From Candidatus Buchananbacteria bacterium (GTDB taxonomy: Bacteria; Patescibacteriota; Patescibacteriia; 2-01-FULL-39-33): a stretch of 33,985 nucleotides of DNA. The stretch lies in assembly GCA_017992755.1 (NCBI GenBank), contig JAGONZ010000004.1, positions 1-33,985 on the forward strand. Reading direction: 5' to 3'. Of the stretch, positions 5,829 to 9,387 are shown one piece after another. The notes under the pieces are model-generated. The model saw nothing but the letters and a program-made list of their open reading frames with translations, did not search any database and was not told the origin of the DNA. The translations under genes and the position numbers were made by a program. Each line of letters begins with the position of its first letter. The stretch's first letter is position 1.

Positions 5829-6242
5829 TTACCGTTTGCTCCACTGTGGAGCACGTCGAGCGCGCTTCAAACCTGGCTTTTTACGTTCTTTGACGCGTGG
5901 ATCGCGCTTGAGGTAGCCTTCGGCTTTGAGGGCGCCACGGAGCTCAGGATCGACGATGATCAGGGCGCGTGACAGGCTGTGGCGGGTCGCTTCAGCCTGG
6001 GAGTGAATACCGCCTGAATGCGTCTTAATGGTGATGTTAACCGTTTCTACGCGGTTAGCAATCTTCAACGGGGCTAAGACGATCTCCTGGAGGGCTTCCG
6101 TTGGGAAGTACTCAGTCATTGGCTTATCGTTGACCGTAATTTCGCCCTTGCCGTTGAGGAACAGCCGCGTTTGAGCAACTGACGTTTTGCGTCCGCCCTT
6201 GGCGTAAATGTATTCTTGAGTTGTTGTAGTTTTGGTCGCCAT
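5829..6242 (-). CDS. rpsI: 30S ribosomal protein uS9
   Basis: A 137-residue uS9. YAKGGRKTSVAQTRLFLNGKGEITVN near the N-terminus and the C-terminal RRAPQWSKR tail, which reaches towards the tRNA in the P site, are diagnostic. It is the last gene of the ribosomal operon and follows rplM with a 5-bp gap, the usual L13-S9 pair; the operon terminator lies just downstream. Length is normal for the family. Confidence 0.97.
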   Translation of the reverse strand: MATKTTTTQEYIYAKGGRKTSVAQTRLFLNGKGEITVNDKPMTEYFPTEALQEIVLAPLKIANRVETVNITIKTHSGGIHSQAEATRHSLSRALIIVDPELRGALKAEGYLKRDPRVKERKKPGLKRARRAPQWSKR

Positions 6243-6247
6243 ACTCG

Positions 6248-6604
6248 TTATTTGATTTTCAATCGTTTCATCATCTTATCGCGAAGCGAGTTTTTTGGCA
6301 GCATTCCGTAGACAGCGCGACGAAGAATATCGGCTGGATCAGTCTTCATTAAAGTTGATGCCTTGAGCGTCTTCAAGCCACCTGGGAAATTAGTGTGCCA
6401 GCGGTATACTTTCTGGTCAAGCTTTTTGCCAGTAAATTTAATATCAGCAACACCAATAACCTGGACGTGATCGCCTTGGTCAAGATGCATTTCAAAATTA
6501 ACCTTGTGTTTGCCACGAAGTAAGGTTGCTACCTGCGCCGCTAAGCGGCCAACTGGTTGCCCAGTAGCATCAAGCGTGTGAGTTGTGCGGGAAATTGGTT
6601 TCAT
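6248..6604 (-). CDS. rplM: 50S ribosomal protein uL13 (short form)
   Basis: A 118-residue uL13. The core LDATGQPVGRLAAQVATLLRGKHK and the C-terminal GMLPKNSLRDKMMKRLKIK region identify it. The usual bacterial protein is about 142 residues; this one is shorter at the N-terminus and ends right after the KRLK segment, without the last roughly 20 residues. The ATG follows the rplQ stop by two bases. The trimming looks like a lineage trait rather than damage, because the conserved core is intact. Confidence 0.96.
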   Translation of the reverse strand: MKPISRTTHTLDATGQPVGRLAAQVATLLRGKHKVNFEMHLDQGDHVQVIGVADIKFTGKKLDQKVYRWHTNFPGGLKTLKASTLMKTDPADILRRAVYGMLPKNSLRDKMMKRLKIK

Positions 6605-6606
6605 AA

Positions 6607-6960
6607 TTACTCAACAAATTCAAGGACAGCCATTTTGGCGTTATCGCCGCGACGTGGTGCCAACTTAGTGATCCGAGTGTAGCCACCTGGACGCTCTTTA
6701 AAACGTGGGCCAAGGACTTCAAACAACTTACGAACAGCGCCTTCAACGTACAGCGTCTTTAAGGCTTGCCGTCGACCGTGAAGCGAATCAACCTTGGCGA
6801 GCGTTACCAAACGTTCAACTACTGGACGCAAGGCCTTAACCTTCGTTTCGGTGGTTTCGATTCGTTCGTAGATCATAAAGCTCGTCACCATACTTCGCAT
6901 CATAGCGACGCGTGGCGCTTTAGTTCGTCCAAAAGTTTTTCCTTGCTTGCGATGTCGCAT
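6607..6960 (-). CDS. rplQ: 50S ribosomal protein bL17
   Basis: A 117-residue bL17, normal length. MRHRKQGKTFGRTKAPR, the SFMIYERIETTETKVKALRP region and the C-terminal GYTRITKLAPRRGDNAKMAVLEFVE are all typical. It follows rpoA by 28 bp, the standard alpha-operon order. Confidence 0.97.
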   Translation of the reverse strand: MRHRKQGKTFGRTKAPRVAMMRSMVTSFMIYERIETTETKVKALRPVVERLVTLAKVDSLHGRRQALKTLYVEGAVRKLFEVLGPRFKERPGGYTRITKLAPRRGDNAKMAVLEFVE

Positions 6961-6988
6961 ATTCAGTGCTTAATCTTCCTTAATCAAT

Positions 6989-7864
6989 TTATTCGTCGTT
7001 TTTCTTTGGTCGGCCGCGCTTCTTTGGCTTATCGTCGGCTTCCGACTCAGCTTCACCATCAGTCTCAGTTGCTGATTCAGCTTTTTCAATAATTTCTTCA
7101 GCTTCATCAATGGTCATTGGAGCCTCAACCTCTGCTACTGGTGCCTCGACGTCAACCTCTTCGAGGTCGTTGTTGCCACCGCCAGCCATAATCCAAGTAA
7201 ATTGGTTGGTGAGAATTTCGGCGGCCTTCTGAACCGCGTCCGCTGGGGCAATTGAACCATCAGTCAGGATATCAAGCACGAGCTTGTCATAATCAGTCTT
7301 CTGACCAACACGAGTCGCTTCAACACTCAAGCCAACATTGATAATAGGAGTGAAAATAGCGTCAGTCAAGATCAAGCCGATCTCGCCTTTGCCTTTCCCC
7401 TGCTCTTCAGTTGGCACATAGCCAATACCTTTTTGAACGGTGAGCTCCATATCGAGTTCACGCTTGTCATCATTGATCGTCGTGATCAAGAGATCGGTAT
7501 TAACAACTTCAGCGTCTGATGAAGACTCGATGGCCGCGGCTGTAACTTTGCCTTCGCCTTTTGCCTGGAGCTTCAAAGTAACTGGCTCGTCAGTAAACAT
7601 CCGAATCCGCAATTGCTTGAGATTCAAAATGATTTCTAAGATATCATCACTGACATCAGCCAATGAACTGAATTCATGCTGAACGCCTTTGATCTTAACC
7701 GCAGTGACCGCGCCACCAGCAAGTGATGACAACAGTACCCGGCGGAGGGTGTTACCAAGCGTCATGCCGTAACCCGGAAAGCACGGTTCGATGATCACCT
7801 TGGCGTGTGAGCCCGGGATGATATCCTCGACACTGAACTTTTTTGGCAGAGAAATATGTTTCAT
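6989..7864 (-). CDS. rpoA: DNA-directed RNA polymerase subunit alpha, CTD replaced by acidic/AT-hook tail
   Basis: A 291-residue alpha subunit. The N-terminal assembly domain is intact: EPCFPGYGMTLGNTLRRVLLSSL near residue 30-50, the GVQHEFSSLADVSDDILEIILNLK segment and VEATRVGQKTDYDKLVLDILTDG. After residue about 230 the usual helix-hairpin-helix CTD cannot be found. Instead there is a 61-residue acidic, alanine-rich tail ending in KKRGRPKK (about 281-288), an AT-hook-like sequence. The start at 7864 is fixed by an AGGAGG site 6 bp upstream; a longer open frame upstream would overlap rpsD. It assembles beta and beta' and sits in the S4-alpha-L17 cluster. Confidence 0.95.
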   Translation of the reverse strand: MKHISLPKKFSVEDIIPGSHAKVIIEPCFPGYGMTLGNTLRRVLLSSLAGGAVTAVKIKGVQHEFSSLADVSDDILEIILNLKQLRIRMFTDEPVTLKLQAKGEGKVTAAAIESSSDAEVVNTDLLITTINDDKRELDMELTVQKGIGYVPTEEQGKGKGEIGLILTDAIFTPIINVGLSVEATRVGQKTDYDKLVLDILTDGSIAPADAVQKAAEILTNQFTWIMAGGGNNDLEEVDVEAPVAEVEAPMTIDEAEEIIEKAESATETDGEAESEADDKPKKRGRPKKNDE

Positions 7865-7870
7865 ACGATG

Positions 7871-7876
7871 CCTCCT
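7871..7876 (-). promoter_or_regulatory. Ribosome binding site that fixes the rpoA start
   Basis: Perfect AGGAGG on the minus strand, 6 bp before the ATG at 7864. It is one of the few full Shine-Dalgarno sequences in the ribosomal operon and argues against the upstream in-frame ATG at 7918. Confidence 0.88.
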
Positions 7877-7898
7877 ACGGTTATGATTAGTAGTGTAA

Positions 7899-8507
7899 TT
7901 ATCGTGAATAGAACTCAACGATCATCTGCCAATTGACGGCGATTTCAACATCGCCCAACGTTGGCTGGCCAGTAACTTTGCCCGTCAGATTAGCGGCATC
8001 AAGAGTTAACCACGGCATAATCGTTTCTTTTTTACTCAAACGCTCGCTGAGATCAGCAAATAACGGTGACTTGGCGCTTGATGGTACCAAAGTAATCACG
8101 TCACCAGATTTGACCTGGGCTGATGCAATATCGAGTTTCTTGCCGTTTACCTGGATATGACCGTGACCGACCAACTGACGAGCCTGAGCCCGAGTAGCGG
8201 CAAAACCAAGACGATACACCGTGTTATCGAGACGATTCTCGAGCATCCGGAACAAACCTTCAACCGTGTTACCAACCTTCTTAAAGGCAACATCAAAATA
8301 CTTACGGAATTGGTTTTCACGCAAATTATACATCGTCTTCGCTTTTTGCTTTTCGGCCAATTGGCGACCGTAGGCGGTAAGCTTCTGGCCCATTTGGGTT
8401 GGACCGTGAGCACCTGGCGCATAGCTGCGCTTATCAAGTGGACATTTGGCTGACTGACAGAGTTTAACTCCGTAGCGGCGGCATTTTTTGTGAGTAAATC
8501 GTTTCAT
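7899..8507 (-). CDS. rpsD: 30S ribosomal protein uS4
   Basis: A 202-residue uS4, normal length. An N-terminal cysteine cluster (C9, C17, C22) suggests a zinc-binding form; the S4 RNA-binding domain follows with LENRLDNTVYRLGFAATRAQARQLVGHGHI. In many bacteria S4 is the autoregulator of the alpha operon in which it lies. The rpsK stop is 8 bp upstream. Confidence 0.97.
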   Translation of the reverse strand: MKRFTHKKCRRYGVKLCQSAKCPLDKRSYAPGAHGPTQMGQKLTAYGRQLAEKQKAKTMYNLRENQFRKYFDVAFKKVGNTVEGLFRMLENRLDNTVYRLGFAATRAQARQLVGHGHIQVNGKKLDIASAQVKSGDVITLVPSSAKSPLFADLSERLSKKETIMPWLTLDAANLTGKVTGQPTLGDVEIAVNWQMIVEFYSR

Positions 8508-8515
8508 AGGTAAAA

Positions 8516-8983
8516 TTAGACGCGACGTGGTTTCTTGGCACGGCAGCCGTTATGTGGAATCGGCGTAATATCTTTGATACTTGATACCGCCAAGCCGTTA
8601 GCATTGAGGGCACGAATTGATGACTCGCGACCACCACCAATACCGCGGACAAAGACTGCGACTTCTTTAAGGCCATGCTTCTTGGCTTTCTCAAAAGCAT
8701 CCTTAACGATAACTGAGGCGGCATATGGCGTGGCTTTCTTTGGGCCCTTAAATCCACATTGACCAGCTGATGACCATGACAAGACATTGCCGTTTTGGTC
8801 GGTCAGGGTGACGATAGTATTGTTATAACTCGCTTTCACGTAAGCGCGGCCAGTGGCTACTTGCCGAGTGGCCCCAACTTTCTTTTTGCGGCGGGCTTTT
8901 GAACCGGCAGCAGCACCCTTAGCTGCTTTTGGTTCGGCAGCTGGTGTTTCTGGAGTTACTGATTGTGTCTCGATATCACTCAT
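8516..8983 (-). CDS. rpsK: 30S ribosomal protein uS11
   Basis: A 155-residue uS11 with YVKASYNNTIVTLTDQNGNVLSW, the GIGGGRESSIRAL motif and the C-terminal PHNGCRAKKPRRV. The N-terminus carries an extra roughly 25 residues rich in A, P, T and E before the basic ARRKKK stretch; the usual length is about 129. It lies between rpsM and rpsD in the standard order. Confidence 0.97.
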   Translation of the reverse strand: MSDIETQSVTPETPAAEPKAAKGAAAGSKARRKKKVGATRQVATGRAYVKASYNNTIVTLTDQNGNVLSWSSAGQCGFKGPKKATPYAASVIVKDAFEKAKKHGLKEVAVFVRGIGGGRESSIRALNANGLAVSSIKDITPIPHNGCRAKKPRRV

Positions 8984-8991
8984 AGTACAGA

Positions 8992-9387
8992 TTATGTCTT
9001 TTGACCAGCGTCCTTGCGTCCAGAGCCGGCGGTCTTACGTTTGTTACCACGAACGGTGCGGTTGTTGGTTTTGGTGCGCTGACCGCGAGCTGGTAAACCA
9101 CGAGTATGGCGGGTGCCACGGTATGATTTAATTTCTTTCAAGCGCTTAATATTGCTCATGACCTCCCGGCGCAATTCGCCTTCAACTGGATAATTTTTTT
9201 CAATCGTGCTGCGCAGGGTGTTGGCCTGTTCTTCTGATAAGTTTTGAACGCGGATACTGCGATCAATCTTAAGCTGATCTAAAATCTTCTCAGATAAAGT
9301 ATCACCAATACCGTAGAGGTATGTGAGCGCGATGACTACGCGTTTGTTGGCTGGTAAAACGGTACCAGCGATACGGAGAGCTGCCAT
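8992..9387 (-). CDS. rpsM: 30S ribosomal protein uS13
   Basis: A 131-residue uS13. ALTYLYGIGDTLSEKILDQLKID (helix-two-turns-helix) and the C-terminal GTRHTRGLPARGQRTKTNNRT basic tail that contacts tRNA are diagnostic. It starts 3 bp after the rpmJ stop, so the two are co-translated. Slightly longer than the E. coli protein, with an extra basic tail. Confidence 0.97.
   Translation of the reverse strand: MAALRIAGTVLPANKRVVIALTYLYGIGDTLSEKILDQLKIDRSIRVQNLSEEQANTLRSTIEKNYPVEGELRREVMSNIKRLKEIKSYRGTRHTRGLPARGQRTKTNNRTVRGNKRKTAGSGRKDAGQKT

Follow-up and report, generated by a model that had tools for sequence, protein, structure and literature searches.

What stands at the end of an RNA polymerase alpha subunit from which the C-terminal domain (CTD) has gone? 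The question is raised by the rpoA gene of a Candidatus Buchananbacteria bacterium, a member of the Patescibacteria, a group of tiny, uncultured bacteria. The alpha CTD is both the reader of upstream DNA and the main target of activators, and is usually called well conserved and common to most bacteria. A class that has lost this domain and bears selected AT-hook tails offers a natural test of whether DNA contact or activator docking is kept by a reduced genome, and the RpoA tail described here is a candidate case of an RNA polymerase domain replaced by a non-homologous element. It is established knowledge that the alpha CTD binds A/T-rich UP elements through the minor groove, as the passage of PMC8321222 that deals with the domain also describes.

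The window analysed was the whole stretch of 33,985 nucleotides (contig JAGONZ010000004.1), in which rpoA lies among its usual neighbours, in the standard gene order S13-S11-S4-rpoA-L17-L13-S9 (5829-9387; Pfam; Table 1). Its translation is intact, running from an ATG start to a clean stop, as had been claimed in an earlier account made from the letters alone (hereafter the sequence-only reading). The N-terminal domain (NTD) matched PF01000 (108 bits, E 3.9e-31) and PF01193 (70 bits, E 1.1e-19), both above the Pfam cut-offs, and the product scored 248.8 bits against TIGR02027 (NCBIfam cut-off 227.8). No match to the CTD family PF03118 was obtained with the product, even at E<=10 (Pfam). In the AlphaFold2 model, for which an alignment of 32 relatives was the input, the NTD was ordered (block pLDDT mostly 85-96; last helix at residues 207-226), no folded CTD was present, and the tail was predicted to be disordered (pLDDT <50 at about 234-280, in two runs, 234-251 and 253-280). 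The claim of an alpha subunit without a CTD was borne out by these two results.

Table 1. Features of the rpoA region (positions in the window).
Feature	Position	Strand	Evidence
rpsM (S13), upstream of rpoA	8992-9387	minus	Pfam
rpsK (S11), upstream of rpoA	8516-8983	minus	Pfam
rpsD (S4), upstream of rpoA	7899-8507	minus	Pfam
rpoA, CTD-less RNA polymerase alpha subunit, 291 aa	6989-7864	minus	ORF and translation, Pfam, NCBIfam
alpha N-terminal domain (dimerisation and insert domains), residues 1-228	7181-7864	minus	Pfam; AlphaFold2
disordered acidic linker, residues 231-278, net charge -19	7031-7174	minus	composition; AlphaFold2 pLDDT
putative AT-hook tip KPKKRGRPKK, residues 279-288, then NDE and stop	7001-7030	minus	PF02178; kept in relatives
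RGRP core of rpoA tip, residues 283-286	7007-7018	minus	
rplQ (L17), downstream of rpoA	6607-6960	minus	Pfam
rplM (L13), downstream of rpoA	6248-6604	minus	Pfam
rpsI (S9), downstream of rpoA	5829-6242	minus	Pfam

RpoA was located in 91 of 95 related genomes and its tail was read from 90 loci. A CTD was sought in these 90 class tails and found in none (0/90), one example being the relative L012, whose tail has 36 residues; counted from where the last NTD helix begins, the tails ranged from 16 to 96 residues. A phylum-wide sample of 380 genomes gave PF03118 in 313 (306 above the family cut-off). In the class it was detected in 29 of 240 genomes, where every such ORF encoded a protein other than RpoA. 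The CTD therefore appears to have been lost from RpoA throughout the class, which we take to be ABY1, holding the Buchananbacteria family together with the Uhr-, Magasanik-, Kerfeld- and Falkowbacteria. The absence of the CTD is thus established as genuine, as the sequence-only reading had supposed, and a normal rpoA that has been frameshifted, truncated or mis-assembled is ruled out for practical purposes by the architecture common to all the relatives, with rplQ next in its usual place and PF03118 found nowhere in the genome (86.7% complete), so that a CTD encoded elsewhere in that genome was also rejected. Some Nealsonbacteria, outside the class, have also lost the CTD, and their neighbours retain it. 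A 113-row NTD tree gave at least 9 changes of CTD state, a rough count given that the tree is weakly resolved.

Several other observations were made in these searches. A sigma-70 region 4 (PF04545) was joined to PF03118 in three proteins (L186 688-1725, plus strand; L189 1444-2280, minus strand; L185 487-1737, plus strand), in genomes whose own RpoA lacks the CTD, and stand-alone CTD proteins were found at L188, L198 and L204. Both kinds may be detached CTDs working in trans. A CTD in another protein was present in 3 of the 6 genomes with an RpoA tail of <30 residues (L055, L044 and L081; genomes G031, G054 and G010) and in 4 of the 84 others (Fisher p 0.005, kinship uncorrected), a comparison which assumes the inclusion of each of the 90 genomes in the class scan and is offered as a lead. 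One Uhrbacteria group (L112-L116, L130, L136, L137, L141 and L142) has a conserved RpoA end of 35 residues, NHFTWIQ.QL.HASLTEQIA.A, with no basic tip. The RpoA search also gave six records titled Lysobacteraceae, Phycisphaerales and Leptolyngbya. An ordinary CTD was present in the RpoA of five of them (L170, L173, L174, L179 and L180), and the contig of the sixth (L156) is probably mis-binned, because its RpoA has a CTD-less, lysine-rich tail like that of the Patescibacteria.

The tail that follows the NTD (6989-7174, 61 codons plus stop) encodes 22 acidic and 8 basic residues. Residues 231-291 consist of the 48-residue acidic linker followed by KPKKRGRPKKNDE. The sequence-only reading had given the length and acidity of this tail correctly and had placed its end at KKRGRPKK, the true end being KKRGRPKKNDE. 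AT-hooks are short motifs by which other proteins grip A/T-rich DNA, and RGRP is the classical motif for the A/T minor groove. The last 22 residues of RpoA scored 18.9 bits against the Pfam AT_hook family (PF02178, cut-off 17.4), and against the same cut-off the motif scored 14.0-16.4 bits within longer RpoA sequence (14.0 in the full-length protein). PF02178 also matched the C-terminal ends of 16 of 20 relatives at E<=0.1. In the alignment of 20 sequences the GRP core and its basic flanks were invariant as K.RGRP.K.

RGRP was found in 20 of the 90 class tails, always 3-8 residues short of the C-terminus, with 19 of the form K-K/R-RGRP-K/R-K and one K-T-RGRP-K-K. When residues were shuffled, 0.011 of the 90 tails were expected to contain it if the whole tail was used and 0.065 if only the last 14 residues were, which rules out composition alone as its origin. 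Seven of the 10 species of the Buchananbacteria family carry RGRP, as do 13 further class tails; the terminal motif, whose absence from relatives would have counted against the sequence-only reading, is thus kept in most of the family, but not in genus L008-L010 within it, in which RGRP is gone and KKKRAKK or KKKK is found instead. Across the eight tip codons of the seven family members, 6.1 of 24 nucleotides differed per pair, versus 0.48 of 8 amino acids; the arginine codons alternated between CGN and AGA, and the sole amino-acid change was K to R at one site. On the NTD tree, RGRP required 11 changes, whereas 300 shuffles required 18.1 on average and never fewer than 14; RGRP is therefore inherited, yet has been repeatedly gained or lost. 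That the AT-hook motif at the end of RpoA is real and under selection is hardly in doubt. A functionless remnant, in which the CTD decayed and left neutral filler, would account for a linker that varies freely in sequence and length among relatives, and for lineages that are nearly tailless (16-27 aa), but it is very improbable given the purifying selection on the tip and the way the motif clusters on the tree, none of the 300 shuffles being as low. An alpha subunit without a CTD and tipped with a putative AT-hook is supported, as no CTD is found in RpoA of the class and the tip is conserved through synonymous change in most of its own family.

The motif background was assessed by pattern searches and in sampled loci, and establishes that the motif is specific to RpoA. 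Among 958 class-locus ORFs, RGRP was present in the last 20 residues of eight, all of which were RpoA. DNA encoding K[RS]G[RS]PKK was found at 23 sites in 95 class genomes, of which 14 lay at rpoA 3' ends when positions were compared, and the rpoA tip is the only exact site of this kind in its own genome. Outside the class there were 11 such sites in 347 phylum genomes (~0.03 per genome), none of which overlapped a CTD-bearing rpoA among the rpoA places listed. A general vogue for KRGRPKK tails in class genomes was rejected, the C-terminal motif being nearly confined to RpoA. Another readable class site is the end of a membrane protein. In one Buchananbacteria relative, a near-identical pair of helix-turn-helix (HTH_17) proteins (L213 182-580 and L214 1437-1841, both plus strand) has an acidic stretch and then a C-terminal KKRGRPKK, an association by which the motif points to DNA. 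N-terminal extensions of S9 with KKRGRPKK or RKRGRPKK were seen in two genomes (L125 5245-5829 and L026 3066-3713, both plus strand), in each case three genes downstream of rpoA, and suggest general nucleic-acid binding by the motif.

These S9 extensions, and the position of rpoA among ribosomal protein genes, would suit a tip that binds nascent or ribosomal RNA, by which transcription would be coupled to translation or RNA polymerase held near the nucleoid edge. Such an RNA or ribosome tether is improbable, as RGRP is a DNA minor-groove motif, the helix-turn-helix pair of the family carries the tip as well, and S9 extensions with the motif are rare.

A less specific role of the tip deserves more weight. 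RGRP is absent from 70 of the 90 tails, and in most of the class the tips are lysine-rich instead. The general class trait is an acidic linker with a basic tip, of which RGRP is a specialised form, because a basic tip (five or more K/R among the final 16 residues) was found in 68 of 90 tails, versus RGRP in 20. Once the CTD was lost, the cationic end of any flexible tail might accordingly provide the polymerase with weak, non-specific electrostatic contact to DNA, with RGRP as one frequent build of it and no reading of A/T content. The retention of the basic cluster in L008-L010 after RGRP was shed, and the lysine-rich tails without RGRP of the CTD-less Nealsonbacteria outside the class, are consistent with this explanation. 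It is nevertheless rather unlikely, since a mere cationic tip would not require a set order of G and P, while RGRP occurs far above the expectation from composition and its two R, G and P are held through synonymous codon change.

The reading preferred here, to which we give a probability of about 0.5, is that the tip stands in for part of the CTD by binding A/T-rich DNA upstream. The helix-hairpin-helix CTD of the housekeeping alpha subunit has been lost, as throughout the class, and a flexible acidic tether with a terminal AT-hook would have taken its place. As alpha is a dimer, two hooks would be presented at the upstream side of RNA polymerase, which would help, as single hooks bind weakly. 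From simple chain dimensions, a disordered tether of ~60 residues should be able to span the distance between the alpha dimer and DNA upstream of -35; its acidic linker might keep it off the enzyme and off random DNA, limiting non-specific sticking. Upstream of -35, the RGR of each KKRGRPKK tip would enter the minor groove of A/T-rich DNA, and the result would be a weak, sequence-biased promoter affinity, that is, the UP-element share of the work of the CTD, minus activator docking. Activator contact by the tail would not be expected, because it has no folded surface. DNA binding by the tail, its position and its effect on transcription are what we infer. A wider proposal, put forward tentatively, is that a non-homologous swap occurred in one class of the Patescibacteria, in which two tethered AT-hooks read A/T-rich upstream DNA for two alpha CTDs and the purely basic tips are a degenerate form.

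In CarD of Myxococcus and in HMGA proteins, RGRP AT-hooks and a highly acidic region occur in one flexible stretch, as in the RpoA tail; these proteins differ in having multiple hooks and in being separate proteins outside the core RNA polymerase. The best precedent is WhiB7 of mycobacteria, in which a C-terminal AT-hook (KRPRGRPRKDAV) contacts an A/T-rich motif directly upstream of -35 while the protein holds sigma-A; loss of either the AT-hook or the A/T-rich motif abolishes activation (PMC3905903, PMC10245118, PMC10432532). In both cases an RGRP hook with basic flanks stands at the C-terminus of a protein attached to RNA polymerase. WhiB7, however, is an inducible activator on region 4 of sigma-A, whereas the core enzyme would carry the RpoA hook permanently, as two copies, each at the end of a long acidic tether. 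Compared with the PF03118 domain, the tail occupies the same place after a flexible linker and has the same proposed target, the A/T-rich minor groove upstream of -35, but is without the helix-hairpin-helix fold, homology or an expected surface for activator docking. CTD-less alpha subunits are already known, and are listed for Hodgkinia, Tremblaya, Euglena plastids and Parcubacteria in the passage of PMC8321222 concerned, which gives the Parcubacterial loss one sentence. As here, those subunits retain the NTD only, and that passage mentions neither an AT-hook nor any other C-terminal replacement in them; the main text of PMC4508563, which is cited beside it, does not contain the words RNA polymerase, rpoA or CTD. 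A literature search, with most subscription journals outside its coverage, found no report of an AT-hook in RNA polymerase alpha, and thus no earlier report of a selected AT-hook tip on this subunit.

The DNA upstream of exact TTGACA-N16-18-TATAAT sites was compared in three genome groups. The A/T rise, taken as the A/T fraction between about -36 and -59 less that between -95 and -145, was 0.068 (SE 0.018, n=74) for the RGRP genomes that lack a CTD, 0.051 (SE 0.017, n=69) for the CTD-bearing ones and 0.023 (SE 0.027, n=31) for those with neither CTD nor basic tip, a small group that was not clearly apart from the other two. The rise was broad and not centred on the UP position, with composition and kinship uncorrected. 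Its direction fits the proposal of a CTD substitute, which it neither supports nor refutes. The promoters of rRNA genes, few in number, were mixed and presented no clear contrast between groups. The suggestion that the tail is a substitute for the CTD is thus partly supported: the putative AT-hook tip on a CTD-less alpha subunit has stood, replacement of CTD function is plausible, and promoter A/T content did not separate the genome groups. Exact TTGACA/TATAAT promoters numbered 338 in 20 RGRP-tailed genomes versus 119 in 20 CTD-bearing genomes, a difference of ~3x with base composition uncorrected. An extended -10 element (TGn) was present at a frequency of 0.50 in the CTD-less RGRP genomes versus 0.29 in each of the other two groups.
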